From Oscillospiraceae bacterium (GTDB lineage Bacteria > Bacillota > Clostridia > Oscillospirales > Acutalibacteraceae), in the NCBI GenBank assembly GCA_902762875.1, contig CACWPS010000001.1, positions 124,001-188,000 of the forward strand: a stretch of 64,000 nucleotides of DNA, given 5' to 3'. Positions 44,275 through 64,000 of the stretch are shown in pieces. The number at the start of each line of letters is the position of its first letter. Position 1 is the stretch's first letter. A program made the position numbers and the translations under genes. The notes under the pieces are model-generated. The model was not told the DNA's origin, did not search any database, and saw only the letters and a program-made list of their open reading frames with translations.

Positions 44275-44414
44275 TATATCGTTTCAAAATACTATGTACT
44301 GCAATCGCAAATTTTTCTTCAAGTGTCAATGAGTTATCCAGCGGGTCGCCCTCTCGGATGCGCATAGTTCGGCGAATCTCTTTAGGTATAACAACCCTGC
44401 CTAAATCGTCTGCT
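44275..44414 (-). pseudogene. AbrB/SpoVT-like fragment at the left island edge
   Basis: Read leftward from about 44414, the frame gives DDLGRVVIPKEIRRTMRIRE-GDPLD, nearly identical to the SpoVT AbrB core, then diverges into NSLTLEEKFAIAVHSILKRYKEQAR and a stop. The first dozen residues of the AbrB domain are missing and replaced by unrelated AT-rich DNA. This is a truncated paralogue, apparently cut by the insertion or rearrangement that begins here. Confidence 0.65.
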
Positions 44415-44530
44415 TGTGTCAAGTAAGGACAAAAATATTTTTTAGTGGTCTAAAACCCTTGATATTACTGGGTTTTTTAGCATTTCGCCATTTTCAAAAG
44501 GCAAAATTTGGCGAGGGGGAATGTGTTATT

Positions 44531-45964
44531 TTAGGACAAAAACCGCAAGACTCTAATCAGTCTTGCGGTTCGTGTTATAATTGTTTCTTCCTTATACATC
44601 TTAACATTATACGGGCTAATCTTTGTGCCATTACATGCTCTTGTATCCTCTTTTAGAAGCTCCTGAACAAGTTCAAAGTCTCTTCGGGATATGATGGGAG
44701 TATGAGTTCCCTCAACACGTGTCCATTCATCTTCACTTTTATAAACAAATTTCTTTGTCTTGTAGTTAGGTGTCGTGCGTTTGCCTTGTGCTAAAATTCC
44801 AACGTACACCTCATTCTGTAAAATCCTACGAACCGTAATGTGATTCCACCCGGGCTGACTACCATCCGGAATTGGAAAGTTGATTCCACAGGATCTCTTG
44901 TATTCCATTGGTGATAAAATGCCCATATCATTTAATTGTTGGGCAATCATTGCAGGACTAAGACCATCAATTTTCCATTTGAAAATATCGCGGACAATCT
45001 CAGCAGCATATTCGTCTATCACAAGCTGATTTTTATTATCTTCGGATTTAACATAACCGTATGGGGCAAAATTGCTAATAAAATCCCCACGTTTTCTTTT
45101 TGCATCGAAGTTTGATCTGACTTTCATAGATATGTCCCTGCTATAAGAGTCGTTCATCAAATTCTTAAAAGGAACCACCAGATTGTCCGATGAAGAAGCA
45201 TTCGATGAGTCATAGTTATCGTTAATAGAGATAAAGCGTATCCCTAACTCAGGGAACAACTTATCAATATAGTAACCGCAGTCAATGTAATCTCTGCCAA
45301 AGCGAGATAAGTCCTTGACGATTACACAATTAACCTTGCCGGTTTTAAGGTCATCCAGCATTCGCTGAAATTCTGCACGATCAAAATTCGTGCCCGTTTT
45401 GCCATCATCCTTGTATTCTTCAATTATTTCCATTTCTGGATGCTTGGCTAAATAACCGAGAATAAGATCACGCTGATTGTTGATACTGTCACTCTCAGCT
45501 TTTCCGTTTGTAGAAAAAGAAAGATCGCCATCCTCTTTCGATAATCGAAGATACTGCATCCACACGGGAAGGATCGTCTTAATGTAATTGCTGATTGCTT
45601 CCTTATACTGCTTGTCATTGCCCGGAACAAAGCTTGAGAAACGCTTCTTACCGTCAAGTGCCACCTTTTCAAGGGAGGCATAGGCGGTCTCGCGCTTTTT
45701 GGCGCCGTCGGCGTCGGTTCTTGCACCGAACTTTCTCTCACTCAGGACAAAACGCACATAGGCATCCACCAGCTGATAATGATAGCCCATGGCCTTGTTG
45801 TCTGTCGTAATCGGAGCCGTCTTGCAGAAGGACTCAAAGGTTTCGAGAACGCAGATGCGGTAATTGACTTCCTGCATCTCAATCACTTTTTCAAGCGGAA
45901 GGTTGCCGGAATTGATCTGCGAGCAGAAGGACTGCTGTTTTTCACGATACTGTTGTAGAGCCAT
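44531..45964 (-). pseudogene. Chimeric, truncated serine recombinase
   Basis: The 477-residue frame joins two parts. Residues 1 to about 137 (YREKQQSFCSQINSGNLPLE through KTILPVWMQY) belong to an unrelated helical protein, which I link only loosely to ICE accessory proteins. From there a large serine recombinase begins: YLRLSKEDGD with the nucleophile Ser near 142, KDLSRFGRDYID and the recombinase domain to about 440. The zinc ribbon and coiled coil are missing, and the last codons cross a terminator hairpin. It is probably a fused and truncated relic, though the catalytic domain is intact. Confidence 0.7.
44535..44570 (-). terminator. Intrinsic terminator within the end of the recombinase frame
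   Basis: ACCGCAAGACT pairs with AGTCTTGCGGT, followed on the minus strand by TTTTTG. It overlaps the last dozen codons of the chimeric recombinase, so that frame reads through a former 3' terminator. Confidence 0.7.
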
Positions 45965-46065
45965 TCTGTACAATACCTTTGGATATGTAAATCATCATCT
46001 TCACCTCATGTTCTTTTACTTACATTACACGAGCAAAGGAAGACTTTTACAACTCCAGACTGAAA

Positions 46066-46419
46066 TTATAAAACGTACATCAAAACGACGCACAGTGCGA
46101 TGATGGCAAAAAGACATACCAGGATGATGGAAATCTTTTTGATCAGTTCCTTATCAATGCCTTCTCGACGTCGGCCTTCATCGGACGGAAGCACGTCATT
46201 ATAGTATCCGTCATACCCATCCTCGATTATCTCAGGTTCAGGTGTGACAGGTACCTTTTTGGATTTCTTCTTGCTACTCTTCTTTTTGGACGTCTGTTTC
46301 TTTTCAGACTCAGTTTGTTTGGCTTCTTTCTTGGCAGGGGGCAGTTCCTTGCCGCATTCAGCGCAAAAAGAAACGGCACCCTCAATCAGATCGGCACCGC
46401 AAAATGGACAGTATTTCAT
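46066..46419 (-). CDS. Zinc-ribbon protein with C-terminal membrane helix
   Basis: From ATG 46419 (AAAGGAGCGA upstream) the product is 117 residues. It starts MKYCPFCGADL and has FCAECGKEL near 19-27, one zinc ribbon, then a very Lys-rich linker (about 30-62), an acidic patch and a C-terminal transmembrane helix (ISIILVCLFAIIALCVVLMYVL). Such proteins are common in mobile elements of Firmicutes. Role unknown. Confidence 0.75.
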   Translation of the reverse strand: MKYCPFCGADLIEGAVSFCAECGKELPPAKKEAKQTESEKKQTSKKKSSKKKSKKVPVTPEPEIIEDGYDGYYNDVLPSDEGRRREGIDKELIKKISIILVCLFAIIALCVVLMYVL

Positions 46420-46536
46420 TATTTTTCGCTCCTTTACGATAAAAGTAAAAGTGGATCTGAAATCCAGACCCACTTATCGACGATATAAGTATAACACTTT
46501 TTCTTTCACATGTCATCGGCAAAGAATCGTCTTTTT

Positions 46537-46568
46537 ATAGGCAAAATATAGGCACAAAATAGGCACAC
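46537..46568 (+). repeat. Triple ATAGGCA repeat
   Basis: ATAGGCA occurs three times in a row about 11-12 nt apart (46537-46568), the second and third as ATAGGCAC. It lies between the zinc-ribbon gene and the hsdS fragment, as possible protein-binding sites. Confidence 0.35.
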
Positions 46569-46639
46569 CCAAGCAAATAGCGTTATTTCTAAACTTTTTT
46601 CTTGTTTGGTGTCACAAAATGTGCTAAAATTTCGTTGTA

Positions 46640-47892: not shown

Positions 47893-48684
47893 TTAATCGG
47901 CAGCCGCATTTAATTCTCTCACTATTCCATGTAAAACATATCGCGCGTTTTCAAATTCATAACTGCAAGTTGATAATGTAATTATTTTTTCTGTGACTGC
48001 GGGAGAAAGGGGGCTTGTAAACCACGACCGCTTCTGTGCTCCCTTTATCCACGCTTCAAAGTCCGCGTCAGACTCAAATTTTGTCTTCCAGGATGGATCC
48101 TCAACACTGGCTACGTAACCGGCGAAGAATTCTATCCGGTAAGTGCAATCCGGAGTGATAAGTAATCCTACCGGGTGCTCCTCGTAGTACGATTGCTTTT
48201 TATACTTGGTCAGTCCCGAGAACATAGTTCCATCTTTCATATGATGACCATAGATAATACTATGTCGGTCTGATATATCTTCGCTCACCCTGGAATCAAG
48301 GAAGATGCATCCCGCACTGTTCCACTTACCGTTAAAGAGGTGCTTGAGATAATAGCTGTTATCGGAGCCCTGAACGACGGGATAATTAACCGCTGTGCCT
48401 TCGATGTAAATCCAAGCGACACAATCACCATTTATTGAAGTCAGTTCTGTGAAATCTACTTCCGGCCCTGCAGGTGCCGGTTCTGTTTCTCCAGACTCAG
48501 TTGAATCTGTCTCATCAGTATCTTCAAAAGGAGGGACCTCGGGAAAAGAGATAAGCTCCTCAAGGTCAGAATAGGAATCGGCACTTTCCTGCCTCTCTCT
48601 GTGCTCCCGGATGAGATGATATCCGGCGAAGACCGCAATAAAGAAGAAACTCAGAGCCAGTATGACACTAATAACCCTTCTCAT
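47893..48684 (-). CDS. srtB: Class B sortase (first copy)
   Basis: The 263-residue protein has an N-terminal membrane anchor (about 4-22), an acidic linker rich in E, D and P (about 40-75), and a sortase B domain with TAVNYPVVQGSDNSYYLKH near 98-115, His in IIYGHHMKDG near 147, Cys in LSTCSYEF near 240 and Arg in ARYVLHG near 248. All three catalytic residues are present. Class B sortases anchor iron-uptake or pilus-like proteins. Its ATG overlaps the stop of the tyrosine recombinase, an unusual linkage. Confidence 0.93.
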   Translation of the reverse strand: MRRVISVILALSFFFIAVFAGYHLIREHRERQESADSYSDLEELISFPEVPPFEDTDETDSTESGETEPAPAGPEVDFTELTSINGDCVAWIYIEGTAVNYPVVQGSDNSYYLKHLFNGKWNSAGCIFLDSRVSEDISDRHSIIYGHHMKDGTMFSGLTKYKKQSYYEEHPVGLLITPDCTYRIEFFAGYVASVEDPSWKTKFESDADFEAWIKGAQKRSWFTSPLSPAVTEKIITLSTCSYEFENARYVLHGIVRELNAAAD

Positions 48685-49511
48685 AGTTTATTTGCCTTTT
48701 CCTTCATCTGCCGAGCTGAAGGATTACTATAGATGAGTGTAGTTTGCACGTTACTGTGGCCGGCTTGATTTGCAACCTCGTGAATACGGTACTCACCGGT
48801 ATCGAGAGCGTGGCTACAGAAATAATGGCGCAGCATCTTCGGCGTGATAATATCAGAATACTGATTGAATATCTGGTTGATCCTGGATGCTGCCATTCTG
48901 TCAGACTGACGGCTCACAAAGAGATACGGGCTCTCAGAGTTGCGGACCTTAAGGTATTCGCGAATCGCGTGTACCGTTTTATCATTCAGATATACGGTAC
49001 GGTACTTATCACCTTTACCCACGATGTAGATCTCTTTGGCAATTAGGTCCACGTGCTCCAGTTTGAGATTAACACACTCAGATCGACGTATACCGGTGTA
49101 GGTGTACAGGGTCACGATCGCGAAGTCACGTTTGCTGCCACCTTCGAGGAGCCTCTGGCGGAATGCCTCTACATCCTTTTGCTCAACCGTACACGGATTA
49201 GCATACTGAACCTGCACCTTCATAAAATCATTCTTCAAGATTGCCATTTCGGTCTGGCATCCGGAGCTGATCAGAAACTCATTGTATGCCCGCAGGGAAG
49301 AGAGATGGTTGTTGACTGATTTTGGATGGTAGCTTTTGATGTTCCTCATATAGGAAATGTAATCGAGCACGTTTGCCCGGAACAGTGTGAGGGGTATGGT
49401 GCCGAAGCTGTCCACACACCACTGATTATAAATTCGTACCTTGTCGCAGTAATTCTTCGCTGTGTTTTCAGACTTACCGATGCTGCGCAGGTACTCGTAG
49501 AACTCTTTCAT
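48681..49511 (-). CDS. Tyrosine recombinase/integrase of the island
   Basis: From ATG 49511 (AGGAGGCGATACTAAT upstream) the product is 276 residues. It has a core-binding domain (about 1-85), then catalytic Arg in YTGIRRSECVNLK, Lys in VGKGDKYRTVYL, His-X-X-Arg as MLRHYFCSHAL, AGHSNVQTT and Tyr in LIYSNPSARQM. All key residues are intact, unlike the XerD-like protein at 36 kb. It could integrate the element or invert a segment. It is coupled to the sortase gene by overlap. Confidence 0.9.
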   Translation of the reverse strand: MKEFYEYLRSIGKSENTAKNYCDKVRIYNQWCVDSFGTIPLTLFRANVLDYISYMRNIKSYHPKSVNNHLSSLRAYNEFLISSGCQTEMAILKNDFMKVQVQYANPCTVEQKDVEAFRQRLLEGGSKRDFAIVTLYTYTGIRRSECVNLKLEHVDLIAKEIYIVGKGDKYRTVYLNDKTVHAIREYLKVRNSESPYLFVSRQSDRMAASRINQIFNQYSDIITPKMLRHYFCSHALDTGEYRIHEVANQAGHSNVQTTLIYSNPSARQMKEKANKL

Positions 49512-49568
49512 ATTAGTATCGCCTCCTACTTCTATTACACGAGCAGGGGGCTCCGGATACAACAAAAA

Positions 49569-50737: not shown

Positions 50738-50959
50738 TCAATGAGCATTTCGATGCTGTCGAAGTTCCTTACTAATAAAATCCAATTCAAGAAACTTGAT
50801 TTTTTCTCTCGCGTTATTGCTGCGTGTGATATAAACATCGGAGCCGGTTTCTATATATCCTTCCAGTTGGACATAAGGATCGTAACCGGCCAACTTCAAT
50901 GTGGTGATAATCTCATCTAACAACCTTAGCGATTCTTTTTCATTCAATTTGATCACCAT
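50738..50959 (-). CDS. IreB-like small protein
   Basis: The 73-residue protein carries LKLAGYDPYVQLEGYIETGS-DVYITRSNNAREKI, close to the pattern of IreB/UPF0297 proteins ([26 protein letters not shown]). IreB is a substrate of the IreK/PrkC-type Ser/Thr kinase and adjusts cell-wall stress responses. The match is by eye and partial. ATG 50959 overlaps the end of the upstream gene, and a ribosome-binding site is weak. Confidence 0.55.
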   Translation of the reverse strand: MVIKLNEKESLRLLDEIITTLKLAGYDPYVQLEGYIETGSDVYITRSNNAREKIKFLELDFISKELRQHRNAH

Positions 50960-51182
50960 TTTCTTTTAAGCTACACTTTGAATCAAGCGCTTCGTATACC
51001 CGTTTCCCAACATCAGTTACCTTTACAAATCCCAAGCATTCATTGTCTACATAATCGTCCGAGAAATGTACGCAAGTTTCGGGATGTTTCAAATCGGGAA
51101 CTTTTTGGCAAAAGCAACACAATTCCAGTGCGGCCCTTCGTCCATCGCTAGCACAAAAGTTCAGTTTATATTTCTCTTTCAC
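50940..51182 (-). CDS. Cysteine-rich small protein, function unknown
   Basis: GTG 51182 follows AAGGAGTGGTT. The 80 residues include CASDGRRAALELCCFCQ near 10-26 and an HPETCVHFSDDY segment, then a C-terminal VTDVGKRVYEAL helix. Clustered Cys and His suggest a metal site. It is the second last gene of the leftward surface operon. Family not recognised. Confidence 0.6.
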   Translation of the reverse strand: MKEKYKLNFCASDGRRAALELCCFCQKVPDLKHPETCVHFSDDYVDNECLGFVKVTDVGKRVYEALDSKCSLKENGDQIE

Positions 51183-51202: not shown

Positions 51203-52177
51203 TCATAAATTCGGGAAGAAAGAAACACTTAACTCGCCATTGACTTTTTTTACACGGATTTTAATAGGGTTTTCTTCGGCCCATTGCGGATCTAATTCAG
51301 CGCGTTCTTTCCATAGCTGATAATGTTTTGCTGAGCCATCAAAAATCAGTTCTTCTGCAGCCTTCCGCGCTTCAGCCGCATCTTCTATGCATTCAAACTT
51401 TCCAAGATGGAATTGTTTTTTTTGAAACACAATTTTCGCAATCCATTTGCCTTTTTGAAAATAAACACCTTTTACACCAGAGGTATTATCCGCAGGGATT
51501 TTTTTGCTTTTAATCATATCCAATGAGGTTCCATCAATTCGGGTGAGGAAACTCTGCATTTGACTGTCGTGTTCCTTTTTCTTGCATCCACAACTTTGAA
51601 GGTTACAATGAACCAATTCGTTATAGCAAATATCAATCTCGGTTCCACACTCACATCTGCAGTGCCAGATTATTTGTCCCTTTGTAGATCTTTCTTTTGT
51701 TGGGTAAAGTGCAGTGAGACGATTGAAAACCTGACCAGTGATATCTTTGAAATAATAGTTTTTCTCCTCGGTTTTGCAACCACAATGATTTTTACGTCCC
51801 GTGACAAGCAGCGATGCCAAAACATCACACTCGTTCCCGCAACTGCATTTACAATGCCACCAGACGCCACCACGAGTATCCCTGGGATGATTCTCTGCTT
51901 TATGTATAACAGTTAGTTCGCCATATCTCTGGCCAGTCAATTCATATGAGTTGACTCTGACACTGTTTTCAACAGTTGTGCACCCACAGCTCTTGGAGCC
52001 ACCATATAACAAACTTCTTTCCAGAACATATTTCTCTGTCCCACAGTCGCATCGGCACAACCATTTTCTTTCTGTCCGGTTCGACTTATTTTTGTATGTT
52101 ACAGGACCATCGATGACAGCCCAGCGACCAAATCTTTGATTTAATAAGCTCTGTTTCTCATTCATTCTCTCACTCAT
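51203..52177 (-). CDS. CxCG zinc-cluster/AP2-domain DNA-binding protein (three modules)
   Basis: The 324-residue protein repeats a module (FGRWAVIDGP-type strand, WLCRCDCGTEKYVLERSLL, SKSCGC) at about 35-66, 107-134 and 170-198, each with C-x-C-G and C-G-C. It ends in an AP2-like DNA-binding domain (NTSGVKGVYFQKGKWIAKIV, FHLGKFECIEDAAEARKAAE; about 230-295). It is probably a sequence-specific DNA- or RNA-binding protein of mobile elements. Its start overlaps the sortase stop. Confidence 0.75.
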   Translation of the reverse strand: MSERMNEKQSLLNQRFGRWAVIDGPVTYKNKSNRTERKWLCRCDCGTEKYVLERSLLYGGSKSCGCTTVENSVRVNSYELTGQRYGELTVIHKAENHPRDTRGGVWWHCKCSCGNECDVLASLLVTGRKNHCGCKTEEKNYYFKDITGQVFNRLTALYPTKERSTKGQIIWHCRCECGTEIDICYNELVHCNLQSCGCKKKEHDSQMQSFLTRIDGTSLDMIKSKKIPADNTSGVKGVYFQKGKWIAKIVFQKKQFHLGKFECIEDAAEARKAAEELIFDGSAKHYQLWKERAELDPQWAEENPIKIRVKKVNGELSVSFFPNL

Positions 52178-52943
52178 CCTGTAATGAACTCAGTTTACCA
52201 ACTAATACATACCGTGCGGCATCATACTCATACGAGCACGTTGATAGAGTCACAATTCTGTCTTCAGAAGAGCAGCTGAGTGGCGAAAAAAAAGTGGATT
52301 TCTTTTTGGCTTCTTGGATATATTCATATAACTCTTCCTGCGATACAAACTCGCTATATGCATCTGAGTCTGAGGGTGTTACATATCCTGCCATCAATTC
52401 AATTTTATAATTCACTTCGGGTGTCAAAAGCCATATGATCGGATGCTCATCGTAATACTCTTGAGATTTATAATCAGTAAAAGTACCAAACATCGAATCA
52501 TTTTTCATATTGTGACCATATATTATTGTGTTAAGGCTGCTGTAGTCTGAATGGCATCGATAATCCAAAAAGACAGTACCGGCAATATTATATTTTCCAT
52601 TTAACATCCGGCGAAGATAATAGTCATTATCATCGCTTTGTACAATAGGATAATTAACTGGTGTATTTTCGCAGTAGAGCCACCCGACAACATCTTTGTT
52701 TTGCGATAAAAGTGCATCAAAATCAACAGCTATTGGGGCCTGCACTATTTTTTCTCCTTCTTGCTCGCTAATATCGTCAGCATCCTTTATGGTAACAACA
52801 TTGGCTACTATATCCTTATATGTTTCTTCACTTTCAGAATAGTGACATATTGTGCTTATAATTTGATATAGCGAAAAAGAGAAAATCAAAAGCAACAGTA
52901 CAATCAACGCAATCCAGACGAGCTTTTTAGTCTTTCGCAGCAT
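52170..52943 (-). CDS. srtB: Class B sortase (second copy)
   Basis: From ATG 52943 (AAGGTGTG upstream) the product is 257 residues. It has a membrane anchor near 9-31 and the sortase B domain NTPVNYPIVQSDDNDYYLRR, TIIYGHNMKNDSMFGTF with His near 144, LSTCSYEY with Cys near 236, and Arg in AARYVLVG near 244. All catalytic residues are kept. It is about as similar to the first sortase in its domain as typical paralogues, but its linker differs. It sits inside the surface-protein operon, so it probably acts on these products. Confidence 0.93.
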   Translation of the reverse strand: MLRKTKKLVWIALIVLLLLIFSFSLYQIISTICHYSESEETYKDIVANVVTIKDADDISEQEGEKIVQAPIAVDFDALLSQNKDVVGWLYCENTPVNYPIVQSDDNDYYLRRMLNGKYNIAGTVFLDYRCHSDYSSLNTIIYGHNMKNDSMFGTFTDYKSQEYYDEHPIIWLLTPEVNYKIELMAGYVTPSDSDAYSEFVSQEELYEYIQEAKKKSTFFSPLSCSSEDRIVTLSTCSYEYDAARYVLVGKLSSLQDE

Positions 52944-54890: not shown

Positions 54891-55535
54891 TTACTGTTTG
54901 ATAACCAATGTGGTTCCGTCTACATCGCTTATTCCGCTACTCCACTGTTCCTTAACAACAGTTTCTGGAGCTGATTGAATAGAGGATGCCACGATTTCTA
55001 CTGATAGGTAATATCCCTCCGGCGGTGTCACATTACAAACACAACTCTCAATGAGAACGCTCGTTTCGTCGCCCTCGTTAACCGGTACAGTATAGTACCA
55101 ATACCCGTCAGATCCTTTTATCCAATTTGCATTTGATGCGTATGTCATTGCATAATCAGAACCAATTTCAGGTTTAATCGCAGTTACTGAGGTCTGATCC
55201 TCTGACTCTGACATCCATGTGACAACAACGGCAGCTCTGATATAGCTCTGAACATTACCAGTATTTTTAATGCGGACGTTCGTTTTTGTTTGCCCGTCAA
55301 ATTCACCATTTCCACCAGGACCATTTTCAAGAACCTGACAGGCTACATAGGCGTTGTCAAATTCATTTTTTATGGAACCTGTTTTTGTGAACAAAAACGC
55401 CAAACTTACACACGAGATAATACAACAAAGGATGGCAATAATTGCAATGGTGAGGTGTTGTTGCTTTTTATGCTGTGATCTACGACGGCGATGAGTAGGA
55501 ACGTAATATTTTCCTGAATATTTTCTATTAAACAT
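54891..55535 (-). CDS. TasA/CalY-like exported protein with N-terminal anchor
   Basis: The 214-residue protein has a basic N-terminus (RRRRSQHKKQQ), one hydrophobic segment (about 29-51, AIIAILCCIISCVSLAFLF), then a beta-rich exported domain (NVRIKNTGNVQSYIRAAVVV, then DGYWYYTVPVNEGDETSVLI). The same NTG...VR and YYYT patterns occur in the TasA-like proteins at 61.9 and 63.1 kb, so it is a relative. The long basic N-terminus is unusual for them. It lies between the sialidase and the sortase substrate. Confidence 0.65.
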   Translation of the reverse strand: MFNRKYSGKYYVPTHRRRRSQHKKQQHLTIAIIAILCCIISCVSLAFLFTKTGSIKNEFDNAYVACQVLENGPGGNGEFDGQTKTNVRIKNTGNVQSYIRAAVVVTWMSESEDQTSVTAIKPEIGSDYAMTYASNANWIKGSDGYWYYTVPVNEGDETSVLIESCVCNVTPPEGYYLSVEIVASSIQSAPETVVKEQWSSGISDVDGTTLVIKQ

Positions 55536-55552: not shown

Positions 55553-58500
55553 TTACTTATCTTTTTTCTTAAAGATGTTTACATTGTAATCGTCACCGTC
55601 AAGCCAGTATTTATAGGTGCGTTCGTTGGTGAAAGTTACCTTGTTAGCAGCAGCATCTGCAGATAGCTTAACAGTAATAGAGTTACCGCTTACCTTAGAA
55701 CCTGCAAGATTAGACGACGGTGCACACTTGCCATATCTCCAGGACCAATCCGTTTTCTCGGTAATCTTGTACCGATGTCCAACTGTCATGCCATCAATTT
55801 TAATCGAACCATCCTTATGAATGGTTACTGTCAAATTGACGCCATTGCTTACTACGTTGCCACTTTCATCAACCTCGACTATATCAAATAGGAAACTCTG
55901 GTTAATATCCATGCTATAGTCAGCACCATCAGGGAACACCTTATCAATTGTTAAGCTGGTGAGATTGTATTCAAACTTAGCGTAGTAGGTAACATTTACC
56001 CAAAACTCACCCGGTTTTTGTGGTTTGATTCTGTTTTCGCTTACCCACTCTTCAGGGACAGCGTTTTTACAATCAGCATCCAGATACCACCCAACAAACT
56101 TATAGACATTGCTGGAGGCAGTAGCTGTGGATCCGTTTGCTTTGCCAGTCGATGCACCGATTGTCTCAGCCGGAGCATCAACTGAGCCACAGCCAGTAGG
56201 CCCAACAACCTGATATTTGATTGTCACATCCTTCACATAGTAGAAGGTAATGACATTCTCCAGAGAGTTATCGGAAATAGTAAGTGTATAGGTTTTGTTG
56301 CCTAATAACTCATAACCATTAACATCTACAGCTTTTTCCGTTACCTGAGCTTCCCATTTGGCAGTTCCGTTCTTTTCAGCAAGAACAGGAAGCCCTGTTA
56401 CTTGATCTAAGTACTGAACCTTATAGGAATATTCGTTTCTGGTGTAGTACACCCACAATTCCAGAACATTGCCTGCGGTTACTGTACCAGACATTACTTC
56501 ACCCGCATGGCCTTTGGCCCATGTAAAGTGTTGGATCTCCTTGGGTGGGTTGGGAACGGAATAAACCGAACCACTACTCATTTTTCCAGTAAAGGAAGAA
56601 TGTTCGTCGAAACCAGATCCATCTGCCTTTTCGGTCATGTAGTGAACAACATACTGCCCATTTACATTGTCCTTCTCGTAAATGAAGTAGATTGCGTTCC
56701 GGGTATTGTTTGGATCGATATAAAGGCGCTTTTGGTATTCATCAAATACATAACCGCTAATCATTACTGCATTTTCCGTAACGATTGCTTTTTCATTTTT
56801 CTCAACCGTCTTGGTTTTTGCAATCAGATAATAGATCTCGCCCTTGTATGTCGTAGTTCCCAGACTCGTACCGGGATTATTTTTTGTGAGGTAGTATACC
56901 TGATAAGGAACATACTCACGATACACATAGTAGAAGGTGTATACATTCTTGGTTTCGTCTTCGATGTCAACGGTCAGGGAATGACTCTGAATTTCCGGGA
57001 AATATCTGGTTTGATATCCTGCTTTCAGAGCAGAACCTACCTTTGCCTCGAAGGTCTTAGTATTACCAGCCAGCGCAGAACCTGTGATAGGATCAGCAAT
57101 CTCAATTTCATTGCCATTGCCGTCCTTATACACAAATTTGACTGTATAGTTCATAAGTATGTTGGACGTCCACTTGGCATATATCTTGACATCGGAAGTA
57201 ACGGTAGTGTTTTTGAAATCCCAAAGTGTCTCGATGCCATTCTCGTTGATGTAGAACCAACCGAGGAAGTCGTACTTGCCGTTGGTAGGATCAGCGGGTG
57301 GCGTAAATGGAGATTGAATAATACTTCCATGTGGTACGTCATAATCATAAGTGATTTCATCCACTGAATAGATTTTACCAGCCTCAAGATCTTCGTAAGA
57401 ATGGTAGAATGTAACATCGTGATTAATCGGTTCCCACCAAGCATAAAGAATCAGGTCATTTGCAGGCATAGTGGAATTTGCAAAGTCATATGGCTTTACA
57501 TTATCAAAATTGAAATCGTTCGGTGTCTGCGGGGCCAAATACCAACCTTTGAAGGTCACGGAGCCGGGCTGGTAAACAGAAGGTGCCTTAGAAGCATCCA
57601 AGCTATACGAACCATAGGAAGACATCGGCGCCTCGTAGGAAATGATTTCATTTCTTACTGTAGTACCATAGTTGTCAAACACCAGGTTGTAACTATTTCG
57701 GTCGTAAAAGAATTCGGCTCCATTATAGCTGTCACCCGTTTCTGCGGACATCGCTTTGTTCAAGGTATATCCTTCTATGTTTTCAAATTCTTCTTCTGAA
57801 ACCGTCAAACCAGTTCTGTACTTAAATTCAATTGGGAACAACACTTCATAGTCACTTTCCACTCCGGGTGTTCCGCCCAATTTTAATCCATAGTATGTGG
57901 CTTTATATGTGTTGTTAGAACTATAAACATAGGCATAATAGTCACGGTTCTCTTGTGGCATCACAGCAAGGAAGGATGTCCAAGGGCTCTTGGAGGCGTC
58001 CTTGTTTCTTGACCACATATAAGAGCCAGCATCTGTACTTGCGTCGATGAACTCAGTACGAATGTTTGCGCCCCATTTCTTTGTAACAGTAGCATAAGTT
58101 GTACCGCCACCATTGGACATAAACTTAACCGTAAAGGTTGTGCGGTCATAATACACATTCAATGTGGTAGTTCCGTCTGCAGAAACGGTGACATAACCAG
58201 TTTTTCCTTGGTTAAGAGTCCACAGGGGATTATCATCGTAATTTGTGGTATGTCTGCAACTTGCATCATGAGTATGTGCTTTTTTTCCACAACTATAGCA
58301 AGCGGCAGAATGTGAATGCTCTGTGGTTTGGCACTTAAGCTTATAGCAAGCATCAGAATGAGTGTGCTCTTCACAAGTCATTGCACATGAACTGTTGTGT
58401 TCGGCGTGCAGGTTGGTGTGGCAGTTAGAATTCTTCAGTTCTACAGTTGTATCATCGTCTGGAGAGGAAGAGTTCCACCAAGAACCAGTTGAATTCACCT

Positions 58501-61500
58501 GATAATAATCGTTACCGAGCTTATAGTAATACGTATAACTATATCGACCAATCCGATAAAGGCCACCACTTGTTATTGTTGAATTGTTGGTGATGTTAAA
58601 TTTGGTTGCGTCGTCAACAGGGGTCGTGTTTAAAGTGCCCCTTGAGCTTTCATAACATGCAATCGTATGATTTCTGATGCCGCCACAGTTCCAACAAGAG
58701 TCGGTATGCTCTGTGTGTTCGTCCTTACCACATATCCGATCATAACAACCATCGGCTACAGAATGGACATGCTCGGTTTCACCACAAGTAGAAGAACAAC
58801 CGGAACCGTGGGTGTGCACTTCAAAACCACACATGAGCTGCCCTGGAACATATGTAATGGTAGAACCGGTGTTAGCATAGATTTCGAAGGCTTCCTCTGA
58901 AACGTAAGAATATCCATCGTTATCAGCATTCTGTCCCCAAACAACAACTGTAACCTTGGCAGCATCGTTCGCTCTCCAAATTGCAGTATAGGAGGTATGA
59001 TTTGCAGGGATAGGAATATTCATAAATTGCTCGATATCTGCCGAAGTATCTGTGTCCAAATCCCATTCGTTCACTTCGCCTGTAACAAAATCCTCAGTCC
59101 AACCTTTATTGGAATCCCATCCCACAAAGATGTATCCGGCCTTGATGGGGTTATCTACGGAAACGGGAGTTCCATAGCGAGCATAAACGGGCTGAACACC
59201 GTAACCACCGTCTAAATCAAAGAGCATTTTATAGTACAGGCGGTCATAATAGATCTCAATATTGGTAGAACCATCGGATGCAATCTCAGCGGTTTCAAAC
59301 AGCAGCTGATAGAAACCGACAAAGCTTTTAGAGAACGCTTCGTTGCTGACATCGACCATTGCTCCTGTGATTCCCTCAAGGATAACGGAATCGCCATACT
59401 GCGTATACTCTTCATCCAGTACATTCTGCAGGAAGTAAGTAACCTTGTAAGTAGTTTTACCGGGCTTATAGGTTAGTTCAATTTCAAGGTTTTGGGTTAC
59501 ATCCGTCTTGTTGACAGTGTAAACGTATACATTCTTTGTAAGATCCGGTGTAAGAACAGTTCCGTTTGCTTCATAAAGGTCATAACCCTTTAGATAAGGG
59601 ATCTCAACTTTTTGAGAAACTGCACCATTGTATTCCAGTTCATACGGCTCCTGAAGGATGATTGTTCCGTCTTCCTTTTTTGCAGTAAGAGTGACGGTAA
59701 CCTTATCATCATTAGCTAGAGGCGTATCATCTTCTGTAACTGCAAAAACAAACTTGGAGAAACCATCCACATCAAAGGATATGGTATTGTTGGCAACCGC
59801 AAAGGAACCGAGGACCTTCACTGTTCCTTCGTGGAGGTGGTATACAACAACCTGATCACCGTTCTGGAGGCCGATTTTTGAGGCTTCCAAGGTCACGGTA
59901 ACGGTTTCTCCAGAAGCAGGCTGCCATTCGCTGCCGTCTGCATTCTTGATGGAGATGTCAAGTGCCATAGCCACAGTTTCGCCGGACCCAACCTCAATTC
60001 CACTGGAGTCGGTTTCACTTAACTGTACAGATGCTTCTTCGGGGATAATACCAGCTACACTTACTTTGACAGTTTCGCCAGTAGAGGTGGTAAAGCTCTC
60101 GGAGACCTCGATTTCGGGTTCCTCAGGCTGATACATTGCAATCGTAACAGGAATGGGACTGCTGCAGACTACATTAATAGCATCAGAAGTCTTGCAACGG
60201 ATATTTACCTTTCCATCACTTCCGAGCAACGTGCCAACCATACCGAAGGACAACTCGATGGCCTTTCCGTTTTCGCCGTAGATATCCATCCATTTTCCAG
60301 ATTCGTATTCAATCTGCCATTGGTAATGAATATCAGCAGAACTGTTATGCAGCACCTTTGCCTGAAGCTCGGTTTTTTCGTACAATCCCAGTTTAACAGA
60401 ATTTACGATATTGCCATTTTCATCTACGATAATTGTTTCAGGCTTATCTAGTTTGATACCCAGAGCAGAAGGGAGATAGCCCTTAATATCCATTGTATAG
60501 AAACAGTTATCTCCTACACCCCATTCATTTTCTTTATTCTCAAAAAGGACAAGAACAGCCCCATCAGAACGTTCGCTCAGGCAAGAATATATGAATTGAT
60601 TATCTTTTTCGTTGACATAAATGGTTTTTTCCAAATTCATATCGCCATTAGACTCTACCGTGAAAACGAAGATACTTCCGTTCAAACGATTAGACGCTTT
60701 GGACGAATTGGAACCCTTTCTGTTAGGTCCGGTAGGACAAGAAACCAAAACAACCTGTTTGCCATTGGATGTTTTTGAATATGTAATTGCCGAAATTTGC
60801 GTATTGGAGTTGGTATTAACATCAGATAATGTAACTACACTACCCCAACCATTTCCCATATGATAATCAACATAGTTCAATTTCTTTGTGCCATTGCGGA
60901 AAAAGAAGCGCAAAGAACCATTGGTTAATTCCACAACTGCTGCTTCAGAAGCCCAGTTGTAATTAAACTCTGAAGATCTACTCCAATTTTCACCGTCGTT
61001 GGAATAGATAAAACTTAAACGCTGTGTGTTGCCGGAGGCATCGTTATCTCCGTGATAGGAGTAAACCGGGAAGATCATAGTGCCGGAGCTGGTTGTAATG
61101 CTGCTGCCAGGCGCTACAAGGCACACACGCTCAGAAGATGTTTTTACATTCAGCAGTGTCGGCTCAGACCATGTTGAACCACCATCTTTAGAAGAGGTGA
61201 GATACAAATAACCAGTACGTACTACTTTATAAGGCGAGTCTTCACAAAACAGGTTGGTGTTAATGCCATTAGGACCGCTGATATTGAAGTAAGCATCAAC
61301 TTCGTAACCTTCAACTGGAGTATTTGCAGAATTGTAAATTTTCCCTTCTTTTAAGTAATAGGAATAAGATTTGTGATTATCTCCACTTAGGAGGAGATAA
61401 CCGCCCTTGTTGAATCCAACTTTTTCGCTGGGCTGTGTATGATTTTTACCGTTAAGAGCCACACCGTAAGGATATAGGTCTACCAACATATATACGGTTT

Positions 61501-61912
61501 GACCATCGGCACCGACTACCAGACTGGGATCAAGGAATGCCGTAGAGGCAGAGCCGTTATACTTGTTGCCATTGTCACCGAGATAGTTGGATGCATTGTA
61601 GCTCCAAGTCTTACCGCCATCGGTAGATTTGGCAACCAAATTGTCCAGACCGCCTCCGTCAAAGGTAGTATTCCAACGGATATCGGCTGCAGCCACAATT
61701 GTGCCATCCGATAAAGTAACCATTGCAGGAATACGATAGCTGTTGCTAGTGACGGTATTGCCGTCCACCTCGAAAGGTACATCACTTCTAAACGGAACGG
61801 TCAATCCAGAAACTTCCGTCTCCTCCTGAGCACACACTGGAACTACAGGAAGAGAGGATAAAAGCATAACTATTGCAAGAAAAAATGAAAGAAAACGAGA
61901 TTTTTTTGACAT
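55553..61912 (-). CDS. Giant secreted sialidase-adhesin
   Basis: The 2119-residue protein has a signal peptide (about 1-28, cut near VCA) and a GH33 sialidase domain (about 40-480): YRIPAMVTLSDG with Arg near 60, Asp boxes STDGGKTW, SKDGGSTW and SNDGENW, SEAAVVELTNGS with Glu near 323, FFFRNG near 339, IYSCLSERSDG near 441. Then come Ig-like and ZU5-like parts (about 490-740), Listeria-Bacteroides-type repeats, a Cys/His-rich block (about 1025-1220), MucBP-like repeats and a Cna-B-like end. It has no LPXTG or C-terminal helix. It should cleave sialic acids from host mucin at the cell surface. Confidence 0.85.
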   Translation of the reverse strand: MSKKSRFLSFFLAIVMLLSSLPVVPVCAQEETEVSGLTVPFRSDVPFEVDGNTVTSNSYRIPAMVTLSDGTIVAAADIRWNTTFDGGGLDNLVAKSTDGGKTWSYNASNYLGDNGNKYNGSASTAFLDPSLVVGADGQTVYMLVDLYPYGVALNGKNHTQPSEKVGFNKGGYLLLSGDNHKSYSYYLKEGKIYNSANTPVEGYEVDAYFNISGPNGINTNLFCEDSPYKVVRTGYLYLTSSKDGGSTWSEPTLLNVKTSSERVCLVAPGSSITTSSGTMIFPVYSYHGDNDASGNTQRLSFIYSNDGENWSRSSEFNYNWASEAAVVELTNGSLRFFFRNGTKKLNYVDYHMGNGWGSVVTLSDVNTNSNTQISAITYSKTSNGKQVVLVSCPTGPNRKGSNSSKASNRLNGSIFVFTVESNGDMNLEKTIYVNEKDNQFIYSCLSERSDGAVLVLFENKENEWGVGDNCFYTMDIKGYLPSALGIKLDKPETIIVDENGNIVNSVKLGLYEKTELQAKVLHNSSADIHYQWQIEYESGKWMDIYGENGKAIELSFGMVGTLLGSDGKVNIRCKTSDAINVVCSSPIPVTIAMYQPEEPEIEVSESFTTSTGETVKVSVAGIIPEEASVQLSETDSSGIEVGSGETVAMALDISIKNADGSEWQPASGETVTVTLEASKIGLQNGDQVVVYHLHEGTVKVLGSFAVANNTISFDVDGFSKFVFAVTEDDTPLANDDKVTVTLTAKKEDGTIILQEPYELEYNGAVSQKVEIPYLKGYDLYEANGTVLTPDLTKNVYVYTVNKTDVTQNLEIELTYKPGKTTYKVTYFLQNVLDEEYTQYGDSVILEGITGAMVDVSNEAFSKSFVGFYQLLFETAEIASDGSTNIEIYYDRLYYKMLFDLDGGYGVQPVYARYGTPVSVDNPIKAGYIFVGWDSNKGWTEDFVTGEVNEWDLDTDTSADIEQFMNIPIPANHTSYTAIWRANDAAKVTVVVWGQNADNDGYSYVSEEAFEIYANTGSTITYVPGQLMCGFEVHTHGSGCSSTCGETEHVHSVADGCYDRICGKDEHTEHTDSCWNCGGIRNHTIACYESSRGTLNTTPVDDATKFNITNNSTITSGGLYRIGRYSYTYYYKLGNDYYQVNSTGSWWNSSSPDDDTTVELKNSNCHTNLHAEHNSSCAMTCEEHTHSDACYKLKCQTTEHSHSAACYSCGKKAHTHDASCRHTTNYDDNPLWTLNQGKTGYVTVSADGTTTLNVYYDRTTFTVKFMSNGGGTTYATVTKKWGANIRTEFIDASTDAGSYMWSRNKDASKSPWTSFLAVMPQENRDYYAYVYSSNNTYKATYYGLKLGGTPGVESDYEVLFPIEFKYRTGLTVSEEEFENIEGYTLNKAMSAETGDSYNGAEFFYDRNSYNLVFDNYGTTVRNEIISYEAPMSSYGSYSLDASKAPSVYQPGSVTFKGWYLAPQTPNDFNFDNVKPYDFANSTMPANDLILYAWWEPINHDVTFYHSYEDLEAGKIYSVDEITYDYDVPHGSIIQSPFTPPADPTNGKYDFLGWFYINENGIETLWDFKNTTVTSDVKIYAKWTSNILMNYTVKFVYKDGNGNEIEIADPITGSALAGNTKTFEAKVGSALKAGYQTRYFPEIQSHSLTVDIEDETKNVYTFYYVYREYVPYQVYYLTKNNPGTSLGTTTYKGEIYYLIAKTKTVEKNEKAIVTENAVMISGYVFDEYQKRLYIDPNNTRNAIYFIYEKDNVNGQYVVHYMTEKADGSGFDEHSSFTGKMSSGSVYSVPNPPKEIQHFTWAKGHAGEVMSGTVTAGNVLELWVYYTRNEYSYKVQYLDQVTGLPVLAEKNGTAKWEAQVTEKAVDVNGYELLGNKTYTLTISDNSLENVITFYYVKDVTIKYQVVGPTGCGSVDAPAETIGASTGKANGSTATASSNVYKFVGWYLDADCKNAVPEEWVSENRIKPQKPGEFWVNVTYYAKFEYNLTSLTIDKVFPDGADYSMDINQSFLFDIVEVDESGNVVSNGVNLTVTIHKDGSIKIDGMTVGHRYKITEKTDWSWRYGKCAPSSNLAGSKVSGNSITVKLSADAAANKVTFTNERTYKYWLDGDDYNVNIFKKKDK
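58250..58830 (-). other. Cys/His-rich repeat block within the sialidase gene
   Basis: About 190 residues contain many CxxxxHxHxxxC-like units (for example HTHGSGCSSTCG, ICGKDEHTEHTDSC, EEHTHSDACYKLKC, GKKAHTHDASC). The block is inserted between beta-repeat regions. Such HTH-type repeats are seen in other Firmicutes surface proteins; function unknown. Metal binding or disulfide knots are possible. Confidence 0.7.
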
Positions 61913-61926: not shown

Positions 61927-62496
61927 TTATTGTGCATTAGGCCAGCCTGCAGCCTCTAAAACAGAATCGCCGTTGTTGGCAACCTGTGTAGCTTGCGCTG
62001 TCACTTCAATGATTGCTTTACTGTATTGATACATGTTATCCATAGACTCAGAAAAAACTACGGAAGAAAATAGATATTCCGTTGTATTTCCTGGGGTCAA
62101 CATCGTGTAATAGTAATAGTATCCGTCTCTTTCAATCCAATACTGATCATTGATATCTAATTTGATAAGAGACAGATCGGCTTCGCCATCAACGCCTGCG
62201 GCAAGCTGAATTGCTTTATCGACAGAGATACGAACCCAAGCAGGCTGGTGTCCGGTGTTTTTGACTTCGACAATCTTAGATACCGCCATGCCTGGCTGTA
62301 CGTCGATGACATCTTCAAAGGGAACCGGATCTCCACCAGTATCGGGTATAGCCCATTCCTGTAATTCGATTTTAACGTCTCCGGCAGTTATTACATTTGT
62401 TGCCGTATCCTCATAGGAGAAATATGCCGTTGTACCGTATGCCACAATAGATAGACATACGGCTATAAACGCACAGACAAACACTTTTTTCTTCAT
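61927..62496 (-). CDS. TasA/CalY-like protein with SipW-type signal peptide
   Basis: The 189-residue protein starts MKKKVFVCAFIAVCLSIVAY-GTTAYFSYEDTATN. The short hydrophobic core followed by T-AYFS-E-TA-N is the pattern of SipW-processed TasA/camelysin family proteins. The rest is beta-rich (IVEVKNTGHQPAWVRISVDK, DGYYYYYTMLTPGNTTEYLF). TasA-like proteins polymerise into extracellular fibres. GGAAATG precedes the start; the gene lies 15 nt upstream of the sialidase. Confidence 0.78.
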   Translation of the reverse strand: MKKKVFVCAFIAVCLSIVAYGTTAYFSYEDTATNVITAGDVKIELQEWAIPDTGGDPVPFEDVIDVQPGMAVSKIVEVKNTGHQPAWVRISVDKAIQLAAGVDGEADLSLIKLDINDQYWIERDGYYYYYTMLTPGNTTEYLFSSVVFSESMDNMYQYSKAIIEVTAQATQVANNGDSVLEAAGWPNAQ

Positions 62497-62609: not shown

Positions 62610-62696
62610 CCCCCCGAAGGAAGCAGAGTACGCGAGGTATGAAGACAAAACAGAACTAATCGCAGCAGGTTCTGCCAAGCCTTATAAGTGGTTTAA

Positions 62697-62918
62697 TCAA
62701 TATTTGACAAACGGGATAAGAGAAAGCCATAATTGCCGTCTACGACGGATCCAATATCGTCTTTCTTCACCCGAAGTTCGCCCAATCTCACTGTTGAGAT
62801 ACTTCAGTTCTTGGGAAAATTCGTTGATGAACTGTGCAAATCCAAACAAGAGAAGTATAAGAAATCCAAAAGCAATCAATCCTACAAGGAGATAGAGTGC
62901 AGAGTCATTTTCATTCAT
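62697..62918 (-). CDS. Small single-pass membrane protein
   Basis: The 73-residue protein has a transmembrane helix (about 7-27, ALYLLVGLIAFGFLILLLFG), then a polar, basic tail (EIGRTSGEERRYWIRRRRQL). Its start overlaps the end of the next gene upstream, so both are translated from one mRNA. Small membrane proteins near pilus-type operons may hold subunits at the membrane. Function unknown. Confidence 0.55.
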   Translation of the reverse strand: MNENDSALYLLVGLIAFGFLILLLFGFAQFINEFSQELKYLNSEIGRTSGEERRYWIRRRRQLWLSLIPFVKY

Positions 62919-63084
62919 CGAATGTGCAACCTACCTTCGTATCAGATTGTTCTTTATTTGTTTCTTTTTTATTTTTTGAACAAGAGAACTCATCGCGATC
63001 ATCCATCTTTGCGACACCCAAAATGGCAAAGACGAGAAATGCAATTGTTCCTCCAACGAAAACTCCAACTATAAAACCTAACAT
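62911..63084 (-). CDS. DUF3789-like small membrane protein
   Basis: From ATG 63084 the product is 57 residues, starting MLGFIVGVFVGGTIAFLVFA, then a charged tail (KMDDRDEFSCSKNKKETNKE). The GFxxGxFxGG helix is the DUF3789 pattern known from phages and mobile elements. The longer frame to 63117 has no better site. It lies 57 nt after the TasA-like gene and overlaps the next small gene. Confidence 0.6.
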   Translation of the reverse strand: MLGFIVGVFVGGTIAFLVFAILGVAKMDDRDEFSCSKNKKETNKEQSDTKVGCTFDE

Positions 63085-63140
63085 TGACCTCAACTCACCT
63101 ATAAAACTCGGCATCACCTTATGCCATTAATCCACTGTTT

Positions 63141-63896
63141 TTACTTATTCCAAGGAGCTACGTAGTCCTTGGAGCCGGGGGTACCAAATGCGGTGTTAAG
63201 CGCATCGTATGCATTTTCGAAAGTAGCGGTTTGAGCAGCTTCAGCAAACACCTTAATGGTTACATTGCCGTTCTCATCAGCAAACTGCGAAGGATAAACG
63301 GTGTTGCCCTTGTTGTCGGTGTAGTAGAAGCAATCTTGAGCTTCATCCCACTCGCAATCTACATTTTTATCAACATAGACTTTGTCGAGTGCCTGAGTAG
63401 CGGTCTGTTCGCCGGCTTTCAGCGCTGTACGATAAGTAACTACATAAACGCCGTAGTCGATACCGTCGATAGTAGCAGGATAGTAATTCCAGTTGCCTAT
63501 GCCATTGCCACGATAACCAGTATCTTCGGTCATTTCAGGCAACCAGCTCCACTGTCCTGCTTCAACAGACTCATTGGTGAAATTGAAGTGCAGGAAGTTG
63601 TTGTAAGCCGCAAAGGAAGGATCACCATCATCCAGAGCTTCCGGGATAGCAATGTGTACTCTGACATAAGCATCGGATGTTCCGGTGTTTTCAACAAAAA
63701 CATCCTTGTTAAGGTCGAGGCTAGGAATCAGTTCTATGTTCTCATCGCGAACCTCATTAATTTGAATTTTAATGCCTTTCATGGTAAACACATTGTCAGC
63801 GGAATCTTCAGCGGTGAAATAAGCCAAAGATGCACCGGCAATTGCCATGACTGCCAGGCAAGCAACAAGGCAAATCGCAACGATTTTCTTTTTCAT
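63141..63896 (-). CDS. TasA/CalY-like protein with SipW-type signal peptide (second)
   Basis: The 251-residue protein starts MKKKIVAICLVACLAVMAIA-GASLAYFTAEDSADN, the SipW-type signal. NTGTSDAYVRVHIAIPEALD recalls TasA. It ends in a motif ENAYDALNTAFGTPG that recurs, altered, at the end of the next upstream gene (DAYTALDASFGAPG). AAAGGAATAAAGCAC precedes ATG. It is a likely major or minor fibre subunit. Confidence 0.8.
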   Translation of the reverse strand: MKKKIVAICLVACLAVMAIAGASLAYFTAEDSADNVFTMKGIKIQINEVRDENIELIPSLDLNKDVFVENTGTSDAYVRVHIAIPEALDDGDPSFAAYNNFLHFNFTNESVEAGQWSWLPEMTEDTGYRGNGIGNWNYYPATIDGIDYGVYVVTYRTALKAGEQTATQALDKVYVDKNVDCEWDEAQDCFYYTDNKGNTVYPSQFADENGNVTIKVFAEAAQTATFENAYDALNTAFGTPGSKDYVAPWNK

Positions 63897-63920
63897 TGTG
63901 CTTTATTCCTTTCTGGTGAA

Positions 63921-64000
63921 TTATTCAGCCCAAGGGTTGTAGGTTCCAGGAGCGCCGAAGGAAGCATCCAGTGCGGTGTAAGCATCAGCAAAACCTGCAG
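63921..64000 (-). CDS. TasA-like paralogue, C-terminal end only
   Basis: Only the last 25 or so residues lie in the window (AGFADAYTALDASFGAPGTY-NPWAE, then stop). The ending is like that of the 63.1-63.9 kb gene, so it is a paralogue in a tandem set that continues beyond the window. It shows that the surface operon starts further right. Confidence 0.75.
   Translation of the reverse strand, partial: AGFADAYTALDASFGAPGTYNPWAE

Follow-up and report, generated by a model that had tools for sequence, protein, structure and literature searches.

A probable operon for a wall-anchored TasA-type fibre, with a sialidase in its variable cargo slot, in an Oscillospiraceae genome

We propose that genes in the right-hand part of a 64,000-nucleotide stretch of an Oscillospiraceae bacterium (C1:124001-188000, here called the window) probably form an operon for a wall-anchored TasA-type fibre, in which a fixed frame of fibre genes encloses a variable cargo slot and a 2119-residue sialidase is the terminal cargo. 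We infer the fibre, its anchoring, the docking of its cargo and the inversion of upstream DNA. The genome comprises 1.69 Mb in 22 contigs and is 97.6% complete and not closed. A co-directional run of 19 genes reads leftwards from a TetR gene, on the DNA that continues to the right of the window (L007), down to window position 50738; L-numbers are labels of compared loci, and L008 is a stretch of contig C5 of the same genome. Intergenic gaps in the run measure -20 to 64 nt, with a single exception of 200 nt. The run opens with TetR, SipW, TasA-like genes encoding 211, 209, 245 and 251 residues, two small proteins and Bsa1. It continues with the sialidase, Bsa0, the sorting-signal subunit Anch and a Cys-rich protein, and ends with AP2-like proteins, the class B sortase SrtB1 and small genes. 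The genes of the proposed fibre, in leftward order, are as follows (window positions unless prefixed).

L007:10644-11237, TetR gene, start of the run and the only regulator found in it.
L007:10066-10641, SipW (TIGR02228, 85.9 bits, over cut-off).
L007:7922-8659, TasA-like gene from the window edge, here completed (245 residues), with a SipW-type signal over cut-off.
63141..63896, minus strand, Tas2, TasA/CalY-like subunit of 251 residues with a SipW-type signal (TIGR04088, 27.8 bits, and PF12389, over cut-off).
61927..62496, minus strand, Bsa1, TasA/BsaA-like protein of 189 residues, directly upstream of the cargo (PF12389 and TIGR04088 over cut-off).
55553..61912, minus strand, cargo of 2119 residues: signal, GH33 head, Ig-like/B-repeat stalk, CnaB-like pilin domain and WL tail.
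60518..61753, minus strand, GH33 head of the cargo, residues about 54-465 (phmmer against solved sialidases).
55619..55960, minus strand, CnaB/prealbumin-like pilin domain of the cargo, residues about 1985-2098 (AlphaFold2, AF2, and Foldseek).
55556..55618, minus strand, C-terminal tail of the cargo, residues 2099-2119, with WLDGDDYNVNIF, the proposed donor strand.
54891..55535, minus strand, Bsa0, TasA/BsaA-like protein of 214 residues between cargo and anchor (TIGR04090, E 6.9e-9, below cut-off).
54219..54878, minus strand, Anch, PPQTGD sorting-signal subunit of 219 residues, the proposed wall anchor (TIGR03063 and TIGR01167 over cut-off).
52170..52949, minus strand, SrtB1, class B sortase (TIGR03064, 198 bits, over cut-off).

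An earlier, sequence-only reading of this stretch had listed TasA/CalY-like proteins with SipW-type signals, a partial fourth such gene at the edge, a PPQTGD sorting-signal protein, two class B sortases and a GH33 sialidase. All of these genes are present as open frames and are borne out by profile matches, the two TasA/CalY-like proteins at 61927-62496 and 63141-63896 and both sortases scoring over cut-off. Extension to the right, where it had expected SipW and further subunits, revealed two more TasA-like genes, SipW and TetR. Its single leftward set holds for the run from TetR to 50738 and fails for the second sortase, SrtB2, which lies beyond two opposite-strand genes.

The frame of this operon recurs widely. 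A search with Anch among 150 genomes of its family found matches at E 0.001 in 41, a good many of them weak and some confined to the sorting signal. Anch is 52-60% identical in six other genera, two of which (L046 and L047) carry the same DNA under two species records, as do L127 and L128. SipW, TasA-like genes, a large protein, Bsa0 and Anch follow in this order in L046-L048 and L051, and counterparts of Bsa1, 55-60% identical, occupy the same place in L046, L047 and L048. In L049 and L050, Anch is accompanied by SipW and/or TasA-like genes, and the large protein is of another kind or missing. When species genomes of GTDB were scanned with an alignment of Anch, 107 relatives emerged, and the best 80 of them were analysed; many of their contigs end early, so that counts from these loci are lower bounds. 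A TasA-like gene ends -120 to +280 nt from the Anch start in 77/80 loci, SipW was found in 46/80, and most often the genes run from SipW through TasA-like genes, a single large cargo and a further TasA-like gene to Anch. The loci come mainly from Clostridia metagenome-assembled genomes, many titled from animal rectum, colon or cecum, and include isolates such as Hespellia stercorisuis, Merdimmobilis hominis and Clostridium porci. One Anch locus, L179 (CAMZHH010000014.1), is binned as Candidatus Saccharibacteria, in which mis-binning is likely, or else transfer.

What varies is the content of the slot, which an open frame of at least 200 residues fills in 70 of the 80 loci. Among 40 slot proteins searched against Pfam, eight of them cut at a contig start and possibly missing their heads, vWA domains occur in 19, B-repeats in 15, DUF7601 in 10 and DUF5979 in eight. 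Single cases are a GH20 head (L113, Candidatus Woodwardibium gallinarum), a GBS104-like Ig domain and the GH33-type BNR_2 of this window. L052 has a GBS104-like tip-pilin Ig domain. Relatives appear to fill the slot mostly with adhesin-like proteins. An exchange of heads is visible in L051/L161, whose cargo matches that of the window at the signal, the Ig-like part, the B-repeats and the C-terminus and leaves the GH33 head unmatched: for L051, the aligned residues are 3-39, 494-597 and 1401-2116, with nothing for 40-493. The loci with the closest anchors, L177 and L108 (74% and 68% identical), likewise have cargo without GH33. The sialidase as a fixed partner of the frame was rejected on these counts, with GH33 in one of 40 cargo proteins. 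A search for the same genes in other gut Clostridia, advised in the sequence-only reading, bore out the widespread module of SipW, TasA-like genes, large protein and sorting-signal protein, and not GH33 (1/40) or SrtB (8/80) as constant members. The link between sialidase and sortase is local to this genome's locus.

The head itself is a predicted sialidase. BNR_2 scores over cut-off, and phmmer places the head nearest the solved sialidases 1sli (E 1.1e-37) and 4x6k (1.6e-36)/4x47, with Sialidase B entries next. Alignment by eye locates the Arg of the RIP motif, the Asp, the Glu, two further Arg and the Tyr of GH33 enzymes. Sialidases of the 1sli and 4x6k/4x47 type yield 2,7-anhydro-Neu5Ac; with 1sli and 4x6k as its best matches, the head may or may not belong to the intramolecular trans-sialidase subgroup of GH33. 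In this genome, 97.6% complete, a search for sialic-acid catabolism gave no match to NanE and two NanA-family matches far below cut-off. Feeding on sialic acid was considered and, for want of NanE and of a NanA match over cut-off, is not supported.

An indication of how cargo might be mounted comes from its C-terminus. The pilin domain is modelled by AF2 as a block with a predicted local distance difference test (pLDDT) score of 80-98 (whole-model mean 88), and Foldseek relates it to pilus-presented adhesins and streptococcal pilins (best E 2.6e-6). The last 16 residues score only pLDDT 50-57, lack secondary structure and are predicted to be disordered. They follow a pattern, W-L-x7/8-N-x-F, that is conserved in a 40-protein alignment (W 38/40, L 39/40, G 32/40, N 39/40, F 29/40). 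That alignment was built from 37 slot proteins picked by W-[LIVM]-x-x in their last 50 residues, of which 35 were kept (L118 was judged a chance match, and L127 is a duplicate of L128), and to which the window's protein, L100, L123, L163 and L173 were added, the last three not picked by the pattern. A domain model made from the same alignment with the tail excluded, which leans towards tailed proteins, finds WL directly after the domain in 38/42 domain-bearing cargo open reading frames (ORFs) of the 80 loci; the remaining four show WF, WI, LL and LL. Among the cultured carriers, Merdimmobilis hominis (L155) has the tail, and Hespellia stercorisuis DSM 15480 (L112) has the module with the WF variant.

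The mature N-termini of the TasA-like proteins have a comparable form, approximately [YW]-[FL]-T-[DA]-x5-N-x-F or one residue longer. A spacing rule of [aromatic][hydrophobic]-x7/8-N-x-[hydrophobic or T], written after both logos had been seen and applied to rows that are related and not independent, is satisfied by 34/42 cargo tails, 162/177 TasA-like N-termini and 76/1311 control pairs, these being aromatic-hydrophobic pairs elsewhere in the same cargo proteins. Short and long forms number 99 and 63 among the N-termini, and 28 and six among the 42 tails. A position-specific scoring matrix (PSSM) derived from the N-termini ranked the tail first in 17/43 cargo proteins, against 1.35 expected, whereas 200 column-permuted matrices gave a mean of 1.6, a 95th percentile of 4 and a maximum of 12. 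In B. subtilis TasA, the donor strand comprises residues 28-38, with hydrophobic contacts at F29, I32 and F39 (PMC9674648, in the available part of the paper); the distance from L2104 to F2114 of the cargo is 10, the same as from F29 to F39.

Across the class, the C-terminal domain gave 23 matches in 19/291 genomes, which we sorted by eye into 16 with a tail and seven without. A TasA-like gene lies within 1.5-kb flanks of 11/16 tail-type matches vs 0/7 tail-less ones; the 16 include our own genome and L196, already in the alignment, and without both the counts are 9/14 (10/14 with a wider look) vs 0/7. Six of the seven tail-less proteins carry LPXTG-type signals at their ends, and the seventh terminates in a class B sortase. 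Because the same domain thus ends in either a tail or a sorting signal, the two look like alternative ways of mounting it.

The subunits are consistent with a TasA-type fibre. PF12389 and the SipW-type signal of NCBIfam (TIGR04088) are over cut-off in Bsa1, Tas2 and Tas3 (61927-62496, 63141-63896 and L007:7922-8659), and Bsa0 has a long basic N-terminus. In donor-strand register, a profile of the TasA-like proteins aligns weakly to the sequence of the B. subtilis TasA structure (E 0.29 over the whole sequence); the profile also matches archaeal bundling proteins, at E 0.009 and 0.021. Searches of PDB sequences with seven mixed TasA-like proteins returned only two fimbrial chaperones (E 0.06 and 0.23), and with 21 proteins of Tas4/Tas5 type no match at E 1.

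Anch has sequence features of a SrtB-anchored surface protein and is the proposed base. It combines a sorting motif, a hydrophobic segment and a positive tail, in a genome with class B sortases, and an xxxTGx motif stands near the C-terminus of 60/68 complete Anch proteins, most frequently as PPQTGD (19/68). SrtB of C. difficile accepts motifs of the PPQTGD kind. AF2 folds Anch into a beta-sandwich that carries a helix at its C-terminus (pLDDT 80), and the best PDB match of this model is the Pyrobaculum bundling pilus 7ueg, a TasA-related archaeal pilus (E 5.6e-4; template modelling score, TM, 0.36/0.42). Further matches of the model include FimG, PapA and a Sulfolobus filament, and a PDB sequence search with the Anch profile gave no match at E 0.1. 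No sorting signal matched in the six TasA-like subunits scanned or on the 2119-residue sialidase. With such a match in Anch alone among scanned subunits, a sortase would anchor the base and not link subunits. Presence of SrtB was tried as a discriminator and proved useless, as 142/150 family genomes match; being near-universal in the family, it says little. SrtB lies at most 6 kb downstream of the module in at least 8/80 loci. Separately, class B sortase matches occur in open frames of about 500-1000 residues in many family genomes, and L212 (G184:C6) has a class B sortase match and a CnaB-like cargo domain in one open frame.

From these features we can outline how such a fibre may assemble. 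SipW would mature several TasA/CalY-like subunits, as expected of its family, and these would polymerise by donor-strand exchange as in B. subtilis, where the mature N-terminus of one TasA subunit fills the groove of the next (PMC9674648, available part). Anch, with its modelled pilin-like beta-sandwich and its sorting signal, would form the base and be fixed to peptidoglycan by SrtB. The 2119-residue protein would be the cargo or tip, consisting of the GH33 head, a B-repeat stalk, the CnaB-like pilin domain and the flexible tail. As the spacing of the tail is that of TasA-family N-termini, the tail probably inserts into the groove of a terminal TasA-like subunit and so docks the cargo, and as the Bsa1 and Bsa0 genes flank the cargo gene, those two are the most likely partners. 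Given the vWA, B-repeat or GH20 heads in the slot of relatives, the fibre here would display a sialidase, held away from the cell, that more likely uncovers or binds host glycans than feeds. The sequence-only reading, which envisaged a sortase-linked appendage carrying a mucin-degrading enzyme, is thereby partly supported: the module recurs, the sortase would anchor the base only, the sialidase is no constant partner, and mucin degradation would be no more than a possible function.

Several observations weigh against this proposal. GH33 occupies the slot in one case only, and 33/70 filled slots lack the tail pattern; four of these 33 have a CnaB-like domain (L112, L123, L163 and L173), a few are TasA-like or SipW genes, and most others match a different, C5Big-type protein with a SipW-type signal. 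L052-L054 begin with the cargo gene, followed by SipW, TasA-like genes and Anch. The BsaA model TIGR04090 is matched below cut-off only (Tas2, E 2.9e-13), and the Bacillus-specific SipW model NF046067 scores 72.8 against a cut-off of 190. The fold match of Anch is weak, with unrelated beta-sandwich proteins (CUB domains and others) at nearly equal E-values, and SrtB matches, over the curated cut-off in 100/150 genomes, are common to the family irrespective of the module. The tail of the window's own cargo ranks only 12th of 2083 windows by PSSM. When the first two positions are removed, the matrix ranks the tail first in 1/43 proteins (5/43 in the N9 subset; 1.47 expected), so that the signal lies mainly in the aromatic-hydrophobic pair, the N and the F. 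The residue order of the tail is also that of a TasA N-terminus; a strand running in the same direction would have the cargo body leave the groove at the opposite end, which raises a steric question for C-terminal docking. Finally, in the available part of PMC7395162, deletion of srtB in C. perfringens left the BsaA profile and pellicles unchanged, and BsaA polymers were mainly extracellular.

A bolder generalisation can be offered only tentatively: that gut Clostridia possess a phase-variable, wall-anchored donor-strand pilus with plug-in adhesin or glycosidase tips, loaded through a tail at the C-terminus that mimics the N-terminal donor strand of TasA-family subunits, the tip being a sialidase here and a GH20 enzyme in Candidatus Woodwardibium gallinarum.

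The alternative that survives best, though we regard it as unlikely, is that the large protein leaves the cell along with the matrix and stays outside the fibre, as a free enzyme or adhesin co-expressed with it, and that the tail serves folding or secretion. The sialidase has no sorting-signal match; further, for the five class-wide tail-type matches with no TasA-like gene close by, inspection of a wider region, which covered these five and not the seven tail-less matches, turned up such a gene for one and none for the other four (4/16), a count that also tells against docking. Yet the cargo gene stands between two TasA-like genes in many loci, and the WL-tailed domain has a TasA-like neighbour in 11/16 cases within 1.5 kb (12 with the wider look), against 0/7 for other ends. 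It is very improbable that SrtB instead polymerises or decorates the fibre covalently, in the manner of sortase-assembled pili, and that an isopeptide bond holds the cargo. The place of SrtB1 within the co-directional run and the CnaB-like pilin domain of the cargo would suit such a role, but among the scanned fibre genes only Anch has a sorting-signal match, SrtB is adjacent in only 8/80 loci, five of the six sortases of the genome are class B (the sixth is unclassified) with no class C identified among them, and C. perfringens BsaA polymers were unaffected by loss of srtB (PMC7395162, available part).

To return to the anchored fibre with its cargo, its expression may be switched. Inverted repeats of at least 14 bp, 60-800 apart, number 16 in 98,845 bases upstream of SipW vs 20 in 1,143,015 bases elsewhere; the upstream windows extended up to 1.8 kb, nested repeats were scored individually, the DNA of L127 and L128 is identical, and two repeats of L161 may, at a guess, derive from tRNA. 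The first type, ACATAAT-N4/5-ATTATGT or near, encloses 208-353 bp in our own C5 and in L112, L119, L125, L128, L134, L177 and L184. On C5, perfect 25-bp repeats (L008:8928-8952 / 9306-9330, 353 nt apart) lie between a tyrosine recombinase and a second SipW/TasA-like anchored set, and the segment between them is a probable invertible element. A recombinase of about 280 residues, 49-64% identical to that of C5, precedes the type-1 repeats in L112, L119 (cut), L125, L128, L177 and L184, and is absent from the stretch of L134 that was covered. The second type, TTTCGTAGAGTTxCACAxxCT, occurs 1.4-1.6 kb apart and flanks an Int of about 380 residues. The Int unit of the present operon (L007:11422-12960) lies upstream of TetR-SipW and bears two direct copies, 101 bp apart, on one side. 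Its Int shares 52-59% identity with the Int of nine further loci of this kind. In eight of the nine, the inverted repeats around Int follow one consensus; repeats of at least 14 bp flank Int in 8/9 of these loci and in our own island, vs 3/168 other ORFs of similar length. Int is oriented with the operon in six of the nine repeat-bearing cases, our own among them, and points the other way in three, L143, L146 and L155, the two orientations occurring in different species. Promoter-like sites number four in the C5 segment against a shuffle mean of 1.2, and eight against 5.6 in the Int unit. With recombinase genes upstream so often accompanied by inverted repeats, many loci look phase-variable, and these units suggest on/off switching of the operons. 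The right-hand recombinase lies outside the window and is better read as part of such a switch than as an edge of the island. That the region is a mobile island of genes assembled by chance, its recombinases being integration remnants, is disfavoured to the point of near-dismissal, since serine recombinase, AbrB-like and tyrosine recombinase genes do lie nearby but the gene order recurs across many genera and the right-hand Int belongs with those nine other loci.

The remaining features of the region are these.

62911..63117, minus strand, small protein of 68 residues, hydrophobic by eye (open frame, co-directional).
62697..62918, minus strand, small protein of 73 residues, N-terminus hydrophobic by eye (open frame, co-directional).
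53882..54154, minus strand, Cys-rich protein of 90 residues (48% over 42 residues to L008:10755-11000, same genome).
53207..53869, minus strand, AP2b, AP2-like/zinc-ribbon protein without a Pfam match of its own.
52953..53210, minus strand, protein of 85 residues in the AP2b-SrtB1 interval (order kept in L109).
51203..52177, minus strand, AP2a, AP2-like/zinc-ribbon protein (PF00847, E 1.1e-5, below cut-off).
50738..51182, minus strand, two small genes (80 and 73 residues) at the downstream end of the run (open frames, co-directional).
48681..49565, minus strand, tyrosine recombinase overlapping SrtB2, membership uncertain (PF00589).
47893..48684, minus strand, SrtB2, class B sortase outside the run, membership uncertain (TIGR03064, 191 bits, over cut-off; 43% to SrtB1).
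46961-47206, AbrB-like gene, over Pfam cut-off.

The AbrB-like gene had been called a relic, a label that its score over the Pfam cut-off does not support. The tyrosine recombinase overlaps SrtB2 by 4 nt and, being 24% identical to its best switch-type match (E 1e-10) and 25% to the C5 recombinase, is by sequence not of the two switch types upstream of SipW. An inverted-repeat unit at this recombinase was sought and rejected, as there are only imperfect repeats just upstream (49568-49582 / 49649-49663). A serine recombinase gene also lies near the island. The island has no tRNA, two tRNAs lie at the far left end of the window, and the G+C content, which ranges over 0.34-0.49 per kb here, speaks neither for nor against a mobile island. 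On C5 (L008), the second, smaller set combines a BsaA-like and a Cys-rich protein with an anchored protein that shares 27% identity with Anch and with a peptidase related to SipW (26% over 107 residues). Several of the 80 loci also carry genes like AP2a/AP2b in the neighbourhood of Anch. To the right of the Int unit lie a SpaA-domain protein with a sorting signal (L007:15632-17197) and a 176-residue protein with a weak surface-protein match; elsewhere in the genome, L107:5086-11036 encodes a 1668-residue SpaA-like protein with a QTGDD sorting signal at its end, directly before another SrtB gene.

If the proposal is true, TasA-family fibres would act beyond the biofilm matrix, as a modular display pilus of gut Clostridia, and would give commensals a route by which to hold a sialidase away from the cell. 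The tail would serve as a legible signal for docking, from which the large surface proteins carried on fibres could be predicted, and the donor-strand rule would work from either end of a protein.

Among the matches listed, the closest described system is the sipW-bsaABCRSD operon of C. perfringens with its neighbouring srtB, in which BsaA forms filaments (PMC7395162), and the earlier remark that no named system of this make-up was known is to be qualified by so close a relative. Both have SipW, BsaA-type subunits, further secreted proteins and an adjacent srtB. In the available part of that paper, the C. perfringens operon has no sialidase, and neither an anchored sorting-signal subunit nor a swappable cargo, both proposed here, is described. 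Control there is by a two-component system, in contrast to the TetR gene and inverted-repeat Int unit found here; no BsaR/BsaS two-component genes were found among the 14/19 run genes scanned, the other five encoding 68-85 residues. Anchored TasA-type fibres with exchangeable cargo are undescribed among the matches listed from open-licence PMC titles and abstract openings, and a review names SipW and class B sortase separately (PMC12445088, available part). With the TasA/TapA/SipW system of B. subtilis, the present locus shares SipW-matured TasA-family subunits and the donor-strand register. TapA, which has a complete fold and stands only at the filament start, donates its strand (PMC10151520, available part), and such a donor-only protein resembles the role proposed for the cargo, with the difference that TapA donates an N-terminal strand and the cargo would use a C-terminal one. 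Sortase anchoring and an enzyme head, proposed here, are not described for B. subtilis in the available parts of these sources.

Sortase-assembled pili offer a further parallel. GBS104-type proteins are tip adhesins of such pili, and both have a sorting-signal subunit as well as tip-like proteins that contain vWA domains, GBS104-like Ig domains and CnaB-like domains. However, SpaA-type pili use a class C sortase and LPXTG shaft subunits, where the present subunits are TasA-like and have no sorting-signal matches. In alignment with the GH33 enzymes 1sli and 4x6k/4x47, the sialidase head covers their catalytic domain in both its parts; unlike them, it is carried on a stalk of about 1500 residues, followed by a pilin-like domain and the WL tail.

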